Both the position numbers and the translations under genes were made by a program. From Spartobacteria bacterium (lineage in GTDB: Bacteria > Verrucomicrobiota > Verrucomicrobiia > Chthoniobacterales > UBA10450): a stretch of 64,000 bases of DNA. Every line of letters starts with the position of its first letter. Position 1 is the first letter of the stretch. A model generated the notes under the pieces. That model was not told the origin of the DNA, searched no databases, and was given only the letters and a program-made list of their open reading frames with translations. Where the stretch lies: contig PLCN01000019.1 in NCBI GenBank assembly GCA_003134785.1, positions 124,001 to 188,000 of the forward strand, read 5' to 3'. Positions 32,949 to 40,315 of the stretch are shown piece by piece.

Positions 32949-33884
32949 ATGGCGTCAACTATTAATTTTCTCCGTCTCCTGGCCGATCCGACCCGGCTCC
33001 GAATGCTACTCTTGCTCGAAGAGGAGGAACTTTCCGTGGCGGAGCTGCAGGAAATTCTCGGGATGGGGCAATCGCGCATTTCCAGTCACCTCGCGCAATT
33101 GAAGCGCGCGGGTGTGGTGGAAGATCGCCGCGCCGGCAAGAATGTTTACTACGGCCTAACGGAGAAGGAGGAACGCAATCCGGCGCGCGCGAAGGTGAAT
33201 GAGCTTACCCGCGTGCTCGCGCGCGAGATGCCGGAGACGGCGCGCGATCGCACGGCGTTGCAGCTTGCGCTGCGGAAACGCCGCGATAAGGCGCGCGAGT
33301 ATTTCGATGAGCTGGCGGGAAAATTCGGCCGCAGTTATGTCCCCGGCCGTTCCTGGCAGGCCCTCGCCCACACGGTCATTACTCTGCTGCCCGCGTTGAA
33401 CGTGGCCGATCTCGGCGCTGGCGAAGGAACGCTCTCGCAACTCCTCGCCAAGACCGCGCGCAAAGTGATTGCGATCGATAATTCGCCGAAGATGGTCGAG
33501 TTCGGATCGAGGCTGGCGAAGCAGCATGGCTTCGCGAATCTGGAATATCGCCTGGGCGATATCGAAGATCCACCGATCACCAAAGGCACGATCGATCTCG
33601 CGATCCTGAGCCAGGCGTTACATCACGCCATCCATCCGGAGCGCGCGATCACCAGCGCTTATCGCGTGTTGCGCAAAGGCGGGCGGATCGTGATTCTGGA
33701 TTTGCTCAGCCACCGGTTCGAACGCGCCCGCGAACTTTACGCGGACCACTGGCTCGGCTTCAGCGAAGTGCAACTGCACCAATTTCTGCAAACCGCCGGA
33801 TTCACGAACATCGAAGTGACGGTGGTCTCGCGCGAGAAACAGAGCCCGCATTTCCAGACGGTTTTTGCTACTGGTGTGAAATAA
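32949..33884 (+). CDS. ArsR-family regulator fused to SAM methyltransferase domain (SahR-like)
   Basis: 311 residues. Residues about 1-85 form an ArsR winged helix: LRLLADPTRLRMLLLLEEEE, LSVAELQEILGMGQSRISSHL, VVEDRRAGKNVYYGL. Residues about 140-300 form a class I methyltransferase fold: LNVADLGAGEGTLSQLLAK (motif I), KVIAIDNSPKMVEFGS and GGRIVILDLLSH. This layout is that of SahR, which senses S-adenosylhomocysteine and represses SAM-cycle genes in some Proteobacteria and related groups. It is divergent from metK-ahcY, which supports the same role here. Direct sensing is an inference; the fold could also be catalytic. Confidence 0.85.
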   Translation: MASTINFLRLLADPTRLRMLLLLEEEELSVAELQEILGMGQSRISSHLAQLKRAGVVEDRRAGKNVYYGLTEKEERNPARAKVNELTRVLAREMPETARDRTALQLALRKRRDKAREYFDELAGKFGRSYVPGRSWQALAHTVITLLPALNVADLGAGEGTLSQLLAKTARKVIAIDNSPKMVEFGSRLAKQHGFANLEYRLGDIEDPPITKGTIDLAILSQALHHAIHPERAITSAYRVLRKGGRIVILDLLSHRFERARELYADHWLGFSEVQLHQFLQTAGFTNIEVTVVSREKQSPHFQTVFATGVK

Positions 33885-34001
33885 CAGCGCTGCGAGCTGG
33901 CGGAATCTCGGCGTTCGAGACTCCTCTGGCCCGGTTGATTTCGCTCGTCAGCCGAAGAGAGCGCTGGTAGGACTCAATTTCGTCAGTCGCGGGAAGATAC
34001 C

Positions 34002-35753
34002 GTGAATCCAAAAAAGTTCTTCGCCGAGCTGCAACGGCGGAATGTTTACAGGGTTGCGGTCACTTACGGGGTGGTGAGCTGGTTGCTCATCCAGATTGCA
34101 ACGCAGGTTTTTCCATTCTTCGAGATTCCGAATTGGGTCACGCGTATGGTGGTCATATTGCTGTTGATCGGTTTTCCAATCGCGCTTGTTCTCGCTTGGG
34201 CATACGAGTTGACGCCGGAGGGATTGAAGCTCACGGAGGAAGTTGAGCCGAGCAAATCGATTGCGCGCAGCACCGGGCGCCAGCTCAACTTTGTCATCAT
34301 CGGCGTGCTCCTGGCGGTGATCGCAATCATGGCGTTCACCTATTATCACCCGTCCAAGCCGCCAGTGGCAGAGACACCGGCCAAGAGCATTGCAATCCTT
34401 CCTTTTGTCGATATGAGCCAGTCGAGAGACCAGGAATACCTGAGCGACGGGATCACCGAACAGATCATCGACTCGCTCGCCTACATCCACGGCCTCTTCG
34501 TCGTGGCGCGGACGACGGCTTTTTCTTTTAAGAACAAGAGCGGCGACATTCGCGACATCGGCCGCCAGCTTCAGGTGACTCATGTCCTGGAAGGCAGTGT
34601 CCGGCGCGGGAACGGAAAGGTGCGGGTCGCGGCCCAGTTGATCGATGTGGTGACCGGCTTTCACATTTGGTCCGAGACCTACGATTCCACCGAGCAGGAT
34701 TTTCTTTCCCTCCAGAGCGACGTAGCGAAGAAAGTCGCCGCCGCGTTGCAAATCGAATTGCACCTGGCCGAGAACACGCAATTGGCCAAGCTGCCCACCC
34801 AGAATCCGGAGGCCTACGATTTATATTTGCGCGGCCGTTATCTTTTGAATAAACGAAACGTTGATTCCATGCAGAGGGGCCTGGGGCTCTTCGAACAGGC
34901 GGTGGCGAAAGATCCACGCTTCGCTGTTGGATATGCTGGAATTGCAGACGCGTATATTTTCCTCGGCAAAGCAGGCGCAATCTTGCCCGACGAAGCATCC
35001 GGCTACGCGTGGTCGGCGGTTTCAACGGCGCTCGCGCTCGATGATAAACTGGCCGAAGGCTATATTTCGCGGGGAATGCTGCTGAACCAGTTCGAATGGA
35101 ATTGGAAGACGGCCGAAGCTGATTACCGGCGCGCGTTGGAGATCAATCCGAATAGTGCTGCGGCGCACCATTGGTATTCGCGCCATCTCGCCCAGCTTGG
35201 CCGTCAGGAGGAGGCCTTGCGAGAGATCGATGCCGCTGAGAAGCTCGACCCCTTAGCATCGTTCATTCGCGCTACGAAAGCGAAGATTCTTTTGACGGCG
35301 CGCCGCAACAATGAAGCGATTGATGAATGCCAGCGCGCTTTGGAGCTCGAAAATAATTATGCAGCATCGTATTCGGTGCTTGCGCAAGCGCAGCTCCATA
35401 ATCGGCAGTGCCAGGAAGGGATTGAATCAGCAAAGAAGTTCGTAGAACTCTCGGGAGAAACCGGCTGGGCGAAGTTAGAACTGGCGTATGCATATGCGGT
35501 GGCGGGAAACAAGATTGAATGCGAACGGATCACCAATGAAGTAATAACCGGATCGGGGCCATATTCGCCATATGACATGGCGACGATTTGCGCAGCGTCC
35601 CGCGATTCGGCTGCAGCTTTTGGCTGGCTAGAAAAAGCGTTAACGCAACGCTCTGTGGATATAATCTGGGTGCGCGTCGATCCGCGATTGGACAACATCC
35701 GCAGCGAAGCACGCTTTCGAGAGATTCTTGCGCGCCTTGTTCCTCGGCGTTGA
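34002..35753 (+). CDS. Membrane-anchored TolB-like/TPR protein, paralog 1
   Basis: 583 residues from a GTG. The N-terminal FFAELQRRNVYRVAVTYGVV is followed by two hydrophobic segments (about 20-37 and 44-68) and a third at about 105-122. Residues about 128-240 form a TolB-N/FlgO-like domain: SIAILPFVDMSQ, YLSDGITEQIIDSLAYI, VTHVLEGSVRRGNGKVRV. Residues 265-560 are TPR repeats (AIDECQRALELENNYAASYS). The end VDPRLDNIRSEARFREIL is a signature of this class. It resembles CadC/adenylate-cyclase-associated proteins without the DNA-binding or cyclase domain. Likely a signalling scaffold at the inner membrane. Confidence 0.8.
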   Translation: MNPKKFFAELQRRNVYRVAVTYGVVSWLLIQIATQVFPFFEIPNWVTRMVVILLLIGFPIALVLAWAYELTPEGLKLTEEVEPSKSIARSTGRQLNFVIIGVLLAVIAIMAFTYYHPSKPPVAETPAKSIAILPFVDMSQSRDQEYLSDGITEQIIDSLAYIHGLFVVARTTAFSFKNKSGDIRDIGRQLQVTHVLEGSVRRGNGKVRVAAQLIDVVTGFHIWSETYDSTEQDFLSLQSDVAKKVAAALQIELHLAENTQLAKLPTQNPEAYDLYLRGRYLLNKRNVDSMQRGLGLFEQAVAKDPRFAVGYAGIADAYIFLGKAGAILPDEASGYAWSAVSTALALDDKLAEGYISRGMLLNQFEWNWKTAEADYRRALEINPNSAAAHHWYSRHLAQLGRQEEALREIDAAEKLDPLASFIRATKAKILLTARRNNEAIDECQRALELENNYAASYSVLAQAQLHNRQCQEGIESAKKFVELSGETGWAKLELAYAYAVAGNKIECERITNEVITGSGPYSPYDMATICAASRDSAAAFGWLEKALTQRSVDIIWVRVDPRLDNIRSEARFREILARLVPRR

Positions 35754-36135
35754 ATTCACATGGAAAGGGTCACTCCGTTCTGATCGCTTCGAGCGGATCC
35801 ACGCGGCAGAGCCCGTCGCGCGCGGTAAGGAGACAGGCGATTAACGCCACGCCTGCGACAACTACGATAGACAGCAACGAAGGATGGATCGTACGGCGAA
35901 ACTTCGTACAGCTGAGTCTTAAGTAAGCCGCTTAATGCCAGTGTCTCTAAGATTCCAATCGCGAGTCCAAAGAATACGGGTGCCCTCCCCTGTCGAACGC
36001 AGTGTGAGTCTCGCGTGGGCGCTCTAACGCGGATGGTTCCGCAACGTTGATTGGCGCTAGGAAAAAAGCTTGTGCCTTAAGTGGCCTAACGATTAAATAG
36101 CCGTTGCAAGCAACGCCGCAAAAGGAAAAAATCAT
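35754..36135. other. Intergenic region with decayed permease end and candidate promoter
   Basis: The left half holds a broken permease tail on the minus strand (see 35770-36015). The right half is AT-rich (GATTAAATAGCC, CTAGGAAAAAAGC) and leads to a strong Shine-Dalgarno AAAGGA nine bases before the small peptide gene at 36136. Confidence 0.6.
35770..36015 (-). pseudogene. C-terminal remnant of a MacB/FtsX-type ABC permease
   Basis: On the minus strand from about 36015, one frame reads VRQGRAPVFFGLAIGILETL, then LSGLLKTQLYEVSPYDPS. The next frame continues SLLSIVVVAGVALIACLLTA and finishes RVDPLEAIRTE at a TGA (35770-35772). This is the last helix pair and C-terminus of the acidobacterial-type duplicated permease (MacB_PCD/FtsX) family, which ends RVDPM-AL-E. 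A one-base frameshift near 35875 and the absence of everything upstream mark it as a relic. Confidence 0.7.
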
Positions 36136-36456
36136 ATGCCCGAAAAACCTCATAGCTATCCCGCCCCGAAAGCACCGCTGTCATTCAGACAAGTAGTAAC
36201 GAAAATCCTCGCTGACACTGGCTATGCGAAGTTTATCCATAGTGAAGTGGTCAAGGCTCGCAAAGGAGATGCGACCGCCACCAAGACCGTCGCTGCGCAT
36301 TTTAAAATGTTGCCTGAAGAATTGAAGGAACTCAGCTTGCCCGCGAATTTCGGCTCGTGCATCAACTGTACCGAGTCGAAGACGAATACCACACTTTTTG
36401 TGCTTGAGTTTGCGACGCCAGCGCGCATCTGGCCGGAAAAACGAAAGAAAGATTAA
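36136..36456 (+). CDS. Small peptide, candidate RiPP precursor
   Basis: 106 residues, ATG preceded by AAAGGA at a good distance. Residues 1-68 look leader-like and helical: LSFRQVVTKILADTGYAKF, then TVAAHFKMLPEELKELSLP. Residues 69-90 hold a Cys/Ser/Thr-rich stretch, ANFGSCINCTESKTNTTLF (Cys75, Cys78, Ser74, Thr79, Ser81, Thr83, Thr85, Thr86), followed by VLEFATP and a basic tail. It has no signal peptide. The next gene on the same strand, overlapping it by up to 59 bases, encodes a lanthipeptide-synthetase-like lyase-kinase. Those residues are suitable for phosphorylation and elimination. Precursor status is inference; it could also be an unrelated small protein. Confidence 0.6.
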   Translation: MPEKPHSYPAPKAPLSFRQVVTKILADTGYAKFIHSEVVKARKGDATATKTVAAHFKMLPEELKELSLPANFGSCINCTESKTNTTLFVLEFATPARIWPEKRKKD

Positions 36457-37783
36457 GACCGCCAGGATCGCTCACAGCCTCCAACAGCAGTGGCTTAACC
36501 GCGTGAAGAAGCTGCCCGTCTCGGACGGAAGCTGGTGCTATTCGCGGCCGGGGCTTAGAAACGATCCGGCGCAAGGCTGGAAAATTCATGTTTCCGCTAC
36601 TCAGCTGTCGGCGAACGAAGTTTTTTCCCGGGTGCGACCCATCCTGCGAGTACGCGACATCTTATTCAAAGTCCCGGTTCGCCTCCATGCGCTCGGAGCG
36701 CTCAACTCCGGGATCGGACAATTTTCGCAGGTCGGAAAATTCCTGACGGTCTACCCGTCCTCAACCGCCGAGGCCATCGAGCTCGCGCGCGAACTCCACA
36801 CCGCCACGCGCGGATTGCGCGGTCCGGAAATTCCGTTCGATGTCCGGTATCGGAAAAACAGCCTGGTCTATTATCGCTACGGCGTCTTTCGAAGACCGCG
36901 CAAGAGCGCCGGGATTGTATATGACGCCGCCGGGCATCCTCATCCGGACCGGCGAGCGGCTGGCCACGCCATTCCGCGCTGGCTCAAGGATCCTTTCCGC
37001 AGATCGTGCGCGAAGCCTCAAAAGATGCGATCGCGGGGGCCGATTGGCGCCGATTATCTTCCCTATAAAGCAATCGCGCAGCGAGGGAAAGGTGGCATTT
37101 ACGAAGCGGTCGATTTATCAGTGTCGCCCGCGCGTCTCGTGATCATCAAAGAAGGACGGCGAGACGGGGAGACCGCCTGGAACGGTGCAGACGGCTATGC
37201 CCGCGTCCAACAGGAAACGCGCGTTCTCCGTTTGTTGCGCAAGGCCGGTGTTCCCGTCCCAGAGGTTCTCAGGCAGTTCAGTCAGAATGGAACCTGCTAT
37301 CTCGTCCTCGAAAAGATCGGCGGCCGGCAATTATTTCCGCGCGGCGCGATGCAACTACGGAACATTTCCTGGCGCCGTGCGGCGAAGTTTCTGGAGCGAC
37401 TCGAGCCAGTGTTAAGCGATATTCATGCAGCCGGATGGGTCTGGCGCGACTGCAAGCCGTCTCACATTTTCCTCGATCACGGCCTGGTGCGGTTGCTCGA
37501 TTTTGAAGGAGCGTGCCCAGTCCACGAAACGGAAATCTTGACCTGGGGTTCGCCCAATTATCTACCGCGGATTTATTACGATAGCTTCACCCGACGCCCC
37601 GGTGTCTTTGAGGACCGCCACGCACTGGGCGTGATCGCATTCCAATTCGGGACGGGAAAATTCCCGCCGGATAAGAAGCAGCTCAGAGCCATACTTTACC
37701 GGCGCACCCAGTGTCCGGATCTTCTGCGGGAGAAAATTGAGCGATTGCTGAGTTCCAAGATTTCCGAGTGCTCTGTAAAGTGA
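36398..37783 (+). CDS. Lanthipeptide synthetase-like lyase-kinase lacking a cyclase domain
   Basis: 461 residues from a TTG that overlaps the upstream peptide gene; a GTG at 36503 would shorten it by 35 residues and cut QQQWLNRVKKLP, which looks like part of the domain. Residues about 45-190 match the N-terminal lyase part of class III synthetases: WCYSRPG, QGWKIHVSATQLSANEVF, LNSGIGQFSQVGKFLTVYPS, GPEIPFDVRY and YYRYGVF. Residues about 225-455 form the kinase: GKGGIYEAVDL loop, LVIIKEGR (Lys251), WRDCKPSHIFL (Asp351) and LDFEGA (Asp368). The protein stops after the kinase, without the LanC-like cyclase. It would phosphorylate and eliminate Ser/Thr to dehydroamino acids; the adjacent peptide is the obvious substrate candidate. 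Confidence 0.75.
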   Translation: MCLSLRRQRASGRKNERKIKTARIAHSLQQQWLNRVKKLPVSDGSWCYSRPGLRNDPAQGWKIHVSATQLSANEVFSRVRPILRVRDILFKVPVRLHALGALNSGIGQFSQVGKFLTVYPSSTAEAIELARELHTATRGLRGPEIPFDVRYRKNSLVYYRYGVFRRPRKSAGIVYDAAGHPHPDRRAAGHAIPRWLKDPFRRSCAKPQKMRSRGPIGADYLPYKAIAQRGKGGIYEAVDLSVSPARLVIIKEGRRDGETAWNGADGYARVQQETRVLRLLRKAGVPVPEVLRQFSQNGTCYLVLEKIGGRQLFPRGAMQLRNISWRRAAKFLERLEPVLSDIHAAGWVWRDCKPSHIFLDHGLVRLLDFEGACPVHETEILTWGSPNYLPRIYYDSFTRRPGVFEDRHALGVIAFQFGTGKFPPDKKQLRAILYRRTQCPDLLREKIERLLSSKISECSVK

Positions 37784-37790
37784 ATCCTCT

Positions 37791-38249
37791 TTGGGAAACT
37801 CGCTGTCCTTGGCAAACTCATTTCAATCCTCTCGGCTTTACGGATTTTTTTGCGAGCTGCGCCGGCGAAAAGTGTATCGCGTCGCCGCCGGTTACGGCGT
37901 CGTCGGATGGCTGCTCATCCAATTCGCGACCACAGTATTTCCGGCCCTGACGCTGCCAGCCTGGACCGCGCGCCTCGTCATTATCCTGGTTCTCGGCGGG
38001 TTTCCCATCGCGCTGGTTCTGGCGTGGGCCTTCGATCTCAGCACGGCTGGCGTGGAAAAAACGCCGGAAATTTCACCCGCTGATTGCCCTCCTACCTTTT
38101 CGGCCCGGCGGAAAAATGTCTTCGGCCTCGCTGCGTTCGGGCTCGCGGTCGCGATCGTGGCCGGCTATTTCCTCGATCCGGTCTGGCACCCGTTGCGTAA
38201 TGACGCGCGTTTTCAGCAGATGCTCGCGAAGTTTGGCGGCAAGCCGTAG
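37791..38249 (+). CDS. Collapsed TolB-like/TPR paralog (membrane anchor fused to the terminal motif)
   Basis: 152 residues from a TTG, eight bases after the kinase gene. The N-terminal half matches both neighbours: FFCELRRRKVYRVAAGYGVV, two hydrophobic segments and ALVLAWAFDLSTAGVEKTPE. A third helix (VFGLAAFGLAVAIVAGYFL) runs directly into DPVWHPLRNDARFQQMLAKF, which is the last 20 residues of the family (compare LDPIWDSLRNDPRFMELLKK in the next gene). The TolB-like domain and all TPRs are gone, yet the frame is kept. This looks like an in-frame internal deletion near 38170-38180. Whether it is functional is unknown. Confidence 0.7.
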   Translation: MGNSLSLANSFQSSRLYGFFCELRRRKVYRVAAGYGVVGWLLIQFATTVFPALTLPAWTARLVIILVLGGFPIALVLAWAFDLSTAGVEKTPEISPADCPPTFSARRKNVFGLAAFGLAVAIVAGYFLDPVWHPLRNDARFQQMLAKFGGKP

Positions 38250-38320
38250 CTCCTGAAATCGCGGCGACGCCGGGCAAAGAATCTTGTTTCAGATTGAGTG
38301 GACGGTTGTAATGAACGGGT

Positions 38321-40315
38321 ATGGCCGGCTTCTTCGAAGAGATTAAGCGACGCAAGGTTTATCGCGTTGCCGCGGCTTATGTCGTCGTAGGCGGCGGTGT
38401 GATCCAGCTCGCGTCGGCGGTTTTTCCGGCCTGGGAATTGCCGGCCTGGGCGCTGCGTCTGGTCATCGTTCTCTTGCTAACCGGGTTTCCGATTTCGTTG
38501 ATCCTCGCCTGGGCGCTCGAAGTAACTCCGGAAGGCATTCGCACCACGCCAACGCTGCCTTCCACGCCACGTCGAAGGCGAAATGTGATCGCACTGCTGG
38601 CCGTTGGCGTCATCGTCTCTGCCGCCGCCGGATTTTTTCTTCTGCCGCGCGCTTCTGCCCGCAAGCTCGACAAATCGATCGCGGTCCTGCCGTTCGAAAA
38701 CTTCAGCGATGACAAAGAGAACGCTTATTTTGCCGACGGGATTCAAGACGATCTGCTGACCACGCTGTCGAAAATCGGCGACCTCAAAGTGATTTCGCGC
38801 ACCTCGGTGATGCAATATCGCGGCCGCGCAAACAATGTGCGAGAAATCGGCAAGGCTCTCGGGGTGAGCGCGGTGCTGGAGGGCAGTGTCAGGCGCGCTG
38901 GCAATCGTGTGCGCGTGAACGTGCAATTGATCGATGCGACCAACGACGAGCATCTTTGGGCGGACGAGTACGATCGGGAGTTGACCGACGTTTTTGCGAT
39001 CCAAAGCGATCTCGCCGACAAGATCGCGACTGCGCTTCGGGCCAAGCTTTCGCCCGAGGAAAAAGCCCAGATCGAGCGCAAGCCGACGGAAAATGCAGAC
39101 GCCTACCTCGCCTTCATCCAAGCGCATGGTTATGTGACGAAACCGGACAGGCTCCCCGCCGATTTACGCACGGCGGAGGAATTATACCAACGCGCGGTCC
39201 AACTCGACCCGAACTTCGCGCTGGCCCATGCGAATCTCTCGCGCCTCGAGAGCACAATTTATCATTTCTCCGATCCAACACCGGCGCGCCTGGAGAAAGC
39301 GCGGGCCGCCTTCAAAACCGCGAGCAGTCTTCAACCCGACCTGCCTGAAACCCATGTCGCGCTCGGCTACATTTATTACTACGGCGATCGTGATTACGAG
39401 CGTGCGCTGGCCGAATTTGAAATCGCGCAACGAGGACTGCCTAACGATAGCGCCACGTATTTGGCGATCGCGGCCATCCACCGCCGGCAGGGCAAATGGG
39501 CCGATTCAACCGCCGGCTTCGAGAAGGCGGCGTCGTTGGATCCAAAAGATGGCTTCATCTGGGAAAACCTCGCGATCAATTACATGGCGATGCGAAATTA
39601 TTCGGCTGCGGAAAAAACTCTCGACCGGGGATTGGCGGTGGCACCGGAATCGATGAACCTGCACGCGATGCGAGCCGAGTTGCAGATCCATTGGAAAGGG
39701 GACGTCGGCGCAGTGGAAAAAGCGTTGGCGAAAGTGCGGCCAGATTTCGATCCCGGAGGCACGGTCACCTGCGCACGCTACGGAATTTACATTCTCACCC
39801 ACCGATATGAAGAGGCGCTCCATCTCATGCAACAATCTCCGCAGCAAAGCTTCCACATGGAGATTCCGGTTGATCAACCGAAAGCCCTCCTCATCGGGCA
39901 GGCTTTACGACTGCTGCACAAAGACGCGGAAGCCCGCGCCGCCTACGAAGAAGCGCGCGGCATTTTGGAAGCCAGCGTGCGCGAAGTTCCCGACGACGCC
40001 ATGCGCCATGCTTTGCTCGGACAAATTTACGCGGCGCTTGGCCGCAGGGAGGACGCCATCCGCGAAGGGAAACGCGCGGTGGAAATTCTGCCCGAATCAA
40101 AGGATGCGCTCGAAGGCCCGATGACGACAATCGGCTTGGCCCAGATTTACGCCGTCGTGGGCGATCGTGACGGCGCTCTTTCCTTGCTTGAGCACTTGCT
40201 GGAGATTCCTTCGAGTCTCTCGGTGCAGATGCTGCGACTCGACCCGATCTGGGATTCGCTGCGAAACGATCCGCGTTTCATGGAGCTCCTAAAAAAACAC
40301 GGTGGCTCGTCTTAG
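38321..40315 (+). CDS. Membrane-anchored TolB-like/TPR protein, paralog 3
   Basis: 664 residues. The opening MAGFFEEIKRRKVYRVAAAY and two hydrophobic segments match the paralogs at 34002 and 37791; a third helix lies near 88-105. The TolB-N/FlgO-like domain reads SIAVLPFENFSDDKENAYFA, GIQDDLLTTLSKIGDLKVIS and VSAVLEGSVRRAGNRVRVNV. Residues about 265-640 hold TPRs (ELYQRAVQLDPNFALAHANL, AIREGKRAVEILPESKDALE). It closes LDPIWDSLRNDPRFMELLKK. The role is probably scaffold or sensor in the inner membrane; no enzymatic domain is visible. The next gene overlaps its end by 14 bases. Confidence 0.82.
   Translation: MAGFFEEIKRRKVYRVAAAYVVVGGGVIQLASAVFPAWELPAWALRLVIVLLLTGFPISLILAWALEVTPEGIRTTPTLPSTPRRRRNVIALLAVGVIVSAAAGFFLLPRASARKLDKSIAVLPFENFSDDKENAYFADGIQDDLLTTLSKIGDLKVISRTSVMQYRGRANNVREIGKALGVSAVLEGSVRRAGNRVRVNVQLIDATNDEHLWADEYDRELTDVFAIQSDLADKIATALRAKLSPEEKAQIERKPTENADAYLAFIQAHGYVTKPDRLPADLRTAEELYQRAVQLDPNFALAHANLSRLESTIYHFSDPTPARLEKARAAFKTASSLQPDLPETHVALGYIYYYGDRDYERALAEFEIAQRGLPNDSATYLAIAAIHRRQGKWADSTAGFEKAASLDPKDGFIWENLAINYMAMRNYSAAEKTLDRGLAVAPESMNLHAMRAELQIHWKGDVGAVEKALAKVRPDFDPGGTVTCARYGIYILTHRYEEALHLMQQSPQQSFHMEIPVDQPKALLIGQALRLLHKDAEARAAYEEARGILEASVREVPDDAMRHALLGQIYAALGRREDAIREGKRAVEILPESKDALEGPMTTIGLAQIYAVVGDRDGALSLLEHLLEIPSSLSVQMLRLDPIWDSLRNDPRFMELLKKHGGSS

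Follow-up and report, generated by a model that had tools for sequence, protein, structure and literature searches.

A gene cassette in a soil bacterium encodes a putative peptide-modifying system that would operate without a dedicated cyclase. The window analyzed here is a 64,000-nucleotide stretch of a Spartobacteria bacterium genome (GCA_003134785.1, contig PLCN01000019.1, positions 124,001 to 188,000). We read its cassette, with a probability of roughly 0.7, as a RiPP-type system in which a leader-guided kinase-lyase converts a conserved threonine to dehydrobutyrine. Enzymes of lanthipeptide classes III and IV turn Ser/Thr into dehydroamino acids by the successive action of a kinase and a lyase. 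The cassette would consist of a precursor peptide, a two-domain kinase-lyase and a TolB/TPR partner (Table 1). In the proposed pathway, the enzyme would bind the long helical leader of the precursor and its kinase would phosphorylate a Thr (or Ser) in the C-terminal core, chiefly the Thr of an invariant Cys-Thr pair, after which the lyase would eliminate the phosphate to yield dehydrobutyrine. With no dedicated cyclase step, the direct product would be a dehydroamino-acid peptide with a neighboring Cys, and any thioether would arise spontaneously or via an unrelated enzyme.

Table 1. Features of the three-gene cassette, in positions of the window.
Feature	Position	Strand	Basis
TolB/TPR protein, 583 aa, N-terminal membrane-like stretch	34002..35753	+	Pfam TPR, weak FlgO/TolB_N
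Precursor peptide gene, 106 aa	36136..36456	+	Relatives in 13/13 loci, purifying selection, enzyme-positive genomes only
Leader part, ~residues 1-70, helical	36136..36345	+	AF2 helices, profile similarity to leaders of other phyla
Conserved Cys78-Thr79, putative modification site	36367..36372	+	Invariant in 15 precursors, Cys-Ser in the 16th
Two-domain lyase-kinase, 461 aa from TTG	36398..37783	+	RamC_N and Pkinase, without LanC
Predicted phospho-Ser/Thr lyase domain (RamC_N), residues 42-203	36521..37006	+	PF25816, 1.2e-40
Protein kinase domain, residues 246-443	37133..37726	+	PF00069, 1.3e-10

The enzyme carries a near-complete set of lyase and kinase active-site residues and terminates where a cyclase would follow. 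The first-pass annotation, made from the sequence alone, had recognized lyase and kinase parts by QGWKIHVSA, GKFLTVYP, YYRYG, K251, D351 and D368, all of which lie where it placed them, and had described a protein ending before any LanC domain. Indeed, the enzyme's ORF, like that of its relatives, stops directly at the end of the kinase, and the protein gives no LANC_like (PF05147) match in Pfam. The possibility that the short ORF is an artefact was discarded, since relatives in several phyla stop at the same point. Alignment to ThurKC (8sao) shows that K62, H64, K91, K114, D148, R160 and R186 correspond to ThurKC K65, H67, K94, K117, D152, R163 and R191. Seven of the eight ThurKC lyase residues are therefore identical, while the eighth, K108, is replaced by Gly105, a glycine shared by 18/18 aligned family members. 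The lyase residues, whose absence on alignment had been named as one of two threats to the original reading, recur across the 18 members, the sole deviation being Glu for Asp at D148 in L028. ThurKC mutants of these residues are impaired to differing degrees (PMC10604976), and its K108 Ala variant installs no dehydration. In the kinase domain, the ATP-binding lysine K251, the helix-C glutamate E273, the catalytic aspartate D351 and the D368-F369-E370 (DFE) motif are kept. H356 occupies the place of the metal-loop (catalytic-loop) Asn; His is also found in close relatives of the window enzyme, and Asn in distant ones. Both the Gly at the position of ThurKC K108 and the His in the catalytic loop count against the proposed pathway.

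An AlphaFold2 model of the enzyme, built from 17 rows (mean pLDDT 83), has the class IV synthetase CuvL as its best fold match (8cav: Z 28.3, 416 residues, rmsd 5.7), covering both lyase and kinase. The next matches are kinase domains and ThurKC (Z ~20, ~400 residues). The model, a check already proposed at first annotation, stops at the point where the cyclase would start and agrees with an intact lyase-kinase module, which may be active. NCBIfam models for LanL (283.6 bits, cut-off 650) and LanKC (221 bits, cut-off 575) match over their first half only, and the LanL score falls far below its cut-off because the LanC half is absent. By analogy, the window enzyme probably works like the dehydratase half of class III/IV synthetases.

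Two-domain relatives are found in several phyla and fall on a common branch. They were identified in 16 of the 98 family relatives searched, some as partial sequences, as well as in Acidobacteriota, Bacillota (Fictibacillus gelatini), Opitutaceae and on a Salipiger plasmid; viral contigs yielded a single distant relative. In even draws of genomes, RamC_N is rare, occurring in 2/288 Verrucomicrobiota and 4/297 Acidobacteriota. The order of Fictibacillus has RamC_N in 17/397 genomes, all save Fictibacillus with frames of at least 800 aa. An unrooted tree of the lyase-kinase region separates, at one branch (100/99), 21 two-domain rows belonging to Verrucomicrobiota, Acidobacteriota, Bacillota and Pseudomonadota from 23 full-length LanKC/LanL proteins. 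Judged from this topology, LanC may have been lost in the two-domain branch or gained elsewhere, loss being the simpler reading given that the closest neighbors of this branch (L048, L076) are full-length proteins. In Planococcus lenghuensis, the lyase-kinase gene (L040, 3959-6387) is broken by an IS630 transposase.

The 106-residue peptide is encoded by a genuine gene under selection. Its AF2 model contains helices at residues 17-26, 28-42, 46-55 and 60-65 (pLDDT ~80), in line with the leader-like helix originally noticed, followed by a low-confidence core. A tblastn search with the window peptide found relatives (53% to 29%) ahead of several enzymes, and further ones were found by reading ORFs upstream of enzymes. 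Each of the 13 loci of the window's subgroup for which upstream sequence is available has a precursor relative immediately ahead of the enzyme (16 peptides in total), and three of these loci encode two in tandem. The 16 precursors share a mean pairwise identity of 25%, and Met1, Cys78 and Thr79 are the sole invariant residues in an alignment of 15, the 16th (L026) having Cys-Ser instead of Cys-Thr. Relative to L024, the closest relative, the peptide has a pN/pS of 0.344/0.73, with a ratio of ~0.17 that is rough, dS being near saturation. A peptide profile matches 13 of 83 family genomes, all of them enzyme-positive, and across the 61 family genomes searched for both, peptide and enzyme co-occur with a Fisher P of 8.5e-11, a value that overstates independence as the genes are linked. 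Three enzyme-bearing genomes lack a profile match: G041, which belongs to the other sub-branch; G052, whose fused peptide was spotted by eye; and G054, which has an enzyme fragment. Selection, alignment and co-occurrence with the enzyme together rule out a chance ORF. The first-pass annotation had made its case depend on conservation of the peptide beside enzyme homologs and had proposed looking for such pairs in Verrucomicrobia; the pairs exist, in 13/13 subgroup loci. A conserved leader, a variable C-terminal core and an adjacent modifying enzyme conform to the pattern of RiPP precursors. Among nine chains compared, the peptide model had no fold match with Z ≥ 2, and nitrile-hydratase-like leader models matched neither the window precursor nor the other Verrucomicrobiota precursors. 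At L026 (172-981), a TPR protein lacking its last residues continues at its C-terminus in frame into the peptide, reflecting either a genuine fusion or an assembly error.

The core following the Cys-Thr pair is short, and in the L023b precursor the Thr of the pair is the sole Ser/Thr of the core. Several cores contain additional Ser/Thr, which counts against the proposed pathway and makes Thr79 the presumed target of elimination. A Cys directly before a Thr cannot form an ordinary lanthionine with that Thr, which leads us to favor a ring-free dehydrated peptide. An unlikely alternative is a split-system lanthipeptide, in which the dehydrated peptide is subsequently closed to a thioether, spontaneously or by a cyclase encoded elsewhere. 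The invariance of the Cys adjoining the Thr would suit such a system, as would the ability of the ThurKC lyase-kinase and cyclase to function in trans (PMC10604976). LanC (PF05147) is encoded in 6 of the 20 enzyme-bearing genomes, which speaks for a separate cyclase and counts against the proposed pathway, but each copy lies on a different contig than the enzyme. The window's own genome contains no LanC, which fits a cyclase-free pathway, nor do 13 of the 19 other enzyme-bearing genomes (14/20 including its own). Several cores possess one Cys, directly before the Thr, and would form no ordinary ring with it, the L023b core offers no other Ser/Thr, and the Fictibacillus core lacks Cys, so rings cannot be the point in that locus. 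These observations weaken the separate-cyclase alternative and favor dehydration without ring closure.

The enzyme gene has no ATG start at its junction with the peptide gene. Both ORFs are present as first annotated and the peptide lies directly upstream of the enzyme, but the start at 36398, and with it the extent of the overlap, is doubtful. In L024, the enzyme frame contains no ATG, GTG or TTG in the mere 38 nt between its opening and the peptide stop. Two other candidate starts are common to the window and L024, namely a GTG at 36503 and an ATT that overlaps the stop of the peptide (ATTAA; window 36452). Either may be the true enzyme start, leaving an overlap of ~5 nt or none. When the junction (36398-36505) is compared with that of 12 relatives, 0/13 loci have an enzyme starting with ATG. 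Rare or weak starts placed over the peptide stop are seen as ATTAA (window, L024), TTGA (L027) and CTGA (L021, L014). Such start-stop overlaps hint at translational coupling and low enzyme output.

The upstream TolB/TPR gene (TPR1) is, by its conservation and distribution, the third member of the cassette. With 19 matching TolB/TPR stretches in the genome, a TPR neighbor by itself would mean little. TPR1 orthologues are however found upstream of the peptide in 13/13 loci with 48-72% identity, compared to 32% to the window's other TPR gene (TPR2). TPR1, peptide and enzyme are all missing from four same-genus genomes without the enzyme, while the flanking genes remain: SAM synthetase and ArsR-methyltransferase on one side, and TPR2, phosphodiester glycosidase, FAH and MotA-like genes on the other. 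TPR1 is tied to the peptide-enzyme pair by this joint absence and by the orthology of its counterparts across loci, which rules out a chance neighbor and gives weight to the TolB/TPR neighbors first remarked upon. One of the related genomes (G002) retains ~30 residues of the TPR1 start; loss of the cassette likely occurred by recombination between TPR paralogues. The TPR orthologues contain no invariant Cys as a possible thiol partner. A 152-aa TolB/TPR remnant (37791-38249), in which the N-terminus is joined to the last ~20 residues, separates the enzyme from the following full TPR gene, and similar remnants are also present in genomes without the cassette. The gap between TPR1 and peptide (35754-36135) measures 382 nt in the window and ~50-75 nt in most relatives, so that ~310 nt were seemingly inserted in the window or lost in the relatives. 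This gap yielded neither an RNA family nor an inverted repeat, positions 33800-38400 contain no known RNA elements, and a promoter/terminator scan did not rise above chance. At L021 (3440-5539), an N-terminal Guanylate_cyc domain is present in the upstream TPR protein, which scores 38 bits against TIGR04510 ('putative peptide modification system cyclase'), far below the 400-bit cut-off.

The joint presence and absence of TPR gene and peptide-enzyme pair, together with the Guanylate_cyc domain at L021, could also point to a signaling switch, in which a small helical protein is phosphorylated, perhaps undergoes elimination, and acts intracellularly with the TolB/TPR protein. Neither a dedicated protease nor an exporter was noticed, and the own genome has no C39 peptidase; the missing exporter and C39 peptidase would agree with an intracellular role, and the lack of a dedicated protease and exporter is a point against the proposed pathway. 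We consider a switch quite improbable: the lyase residues, which a plain kinase would not need, are kept save one, cores vary in length and sequence with tandem precursors at some loci, as is typical of RiPP precursors, and a heme peroxidase or methyltransferase replaces the TPR gene in other phyla. The evidence is better accommodated by a peptide-modifying cassette with a TPR partner.

Loci in other phyla combine related enzymes and leaders with different accessory genes. Precursor-like peptides of ~90-135 aa precede the enzymes of Acidobacteriota, Fictibacillus and Salipiger, and comparison of their leader profile with that of Verrucomicrobiota gives a score of 36.1 (probability 85%); of 60 column shuffles, the highest-scoring one reached 14.3. 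Cores are C-x3-T-like in Acidobacteriota, ACTCHSRTVITTSTPLCTTTTTTTSA in Salipiger and Thr-rich and Cys-free in Fictibacillus. The latter precursor (L037, 5594-5959) lies beside a two-domain lyase-kinase in a cultured strain of Fictibacillus gelatini and weakly matches the nitrile-hydratase-like leader model NF038399 (E 0.018). Accessory genes encode an animal-type heme peroxidase in Acidobacteriota, a methyltransferase in Salipiger and the TolB/TPR protein in Verrucomicrobiota. The heme peroxidase gene directly precedes precursor and lyase-kinase at L030, L031, L032, L035 and L079 (Pfam was run on L031 alone) and is a possible tailoring enzyme. The Opitutaceae enzyme lies on the same branch and is preceded by a precursor of another type, a 48-aa peptide (L034, 5807-5953) with a LKDLKPKRNPKGG leader and the end SISPTNTCSTTPTCRT. 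At L082, of the same sub-branch as L034, no recognizable precursor was found upstream of the enzyme.

We also considered whether the enzyme might be a decayed LanKC/LanL in a locus that is being lost. Its lack of LanC, the His at the metal-loop Asn, the absence of the cassette from related genomes and the interrupted Planococcus gene could all be seen as signs of degeneration. Conservation of the catalytic residues over a deep branch, an enzyme pN/pS of 0.106/0.399 versus L024 and retention of the precursor with the enzyme make decay very improbable.

The window system resembles several known pathways and coincides with none. It has two hallmarks of class III LanKC enzymes (ThurKC, CurKC), namely a lyase domain with its catalytic residues and a central Ser/Thr kinase, and shares their fold over ~400 residues. 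In contrast, it lacks the C-terminal LanC domain, groups on a separate branch from the full-length members and is paired with a precursor whose helical leader is long, whereas LanKC precursors have short leaders. Class IV LanL enzymes (CuvL, SgbL) provide the best family score and the best fold match and lie nearer in the tree than most LanKC, but possess a zinc-dependent LanC domain as ring-forming part. As the defining LanC feature fails, we do not assign the system to class III or IV. In class V lanthipeptides, thioamitides and kintamdin (KinD kinase, KinC HopA1-like lyase), kinase and lyase likewise give dehydroamino acids without LanC (PMC9415263, PMC10880069), as predicted for the window enzyme; there, they are separate proteins with little sequence similarity, whereas lyase and kinase are fused in the window enzyme. 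AviCys-type products (linaridins, thioamitides) require a flavoprotein decarboxylase and a Cys at the C-terminus that undergoes oxidative decarboxylation, and this route was ruled out by the conserved Cys, which lies well before the C-terminus, and by the fact that no aligned precursor ends in Cys. Dehydrazoles (carnazolamide, CcaM) contain several dehydroamino acids and, as predicted for the window product, no lanthionine, and their leader is long and nitrile-hydratase-like (PMC10676384); CcaM, however, is a LanM-type dehydratase fused to a required cyclase domain and acts only after YcaO azole formation. The open-access literature searched yielded no description of a cyclase-less LanKC, nor of this enzyme make-up, branch, precursor family or Cys-Thr signature, in agreement with the initial remark that no described pathway is known to have exactly this layout. 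The chemistry, if confirmed, would be of a known kind, that is, leader-guided phosphorylation and elimination.

The cassette lets one ask with a natural enzyme whether class III/IV dehydration needs a cyclase domain, a question on which published excision experiments conflict. The excised lyase-kinase of ThurKC was inactive without its cyclase domain (PMC10604976); lacking LanC, the window enzyme could be inactive as well, which counts against the proposed pathway. For CurKC and SgbL, by contrast, the dehydration portions reportedly work without a cyclase once excised, as cited in PMC10676384. We tentatively suggest, with some reserve, that the loci make up an undescribed cyclase-free RiPP class spanning at least four phyla, in which a distinct branch of fused lyase-kinases acts on long-leader precursors and the Verrucomicrobiota product carries a single Cys-dehydrobutyrine pair and no lanthionine ring. 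If true, such a defined Cys-dehydrobutyrine pair would be structurally novel, and a compact enzyme placing dehydrobutyrine at one Thr beside a Cys would be a useful tool for peptide chemistry. Because genome mining keyed to LanC would be expected to miss such loci, uncultured soil bacteria may harbor a family of modified peptides that has gone unnoticed. The recurrence in several phyla of a peptide-enzyme pair first seen in a soil bacterium suggests an undescribed modified-peptide family built around a conserved Cys-Thr.
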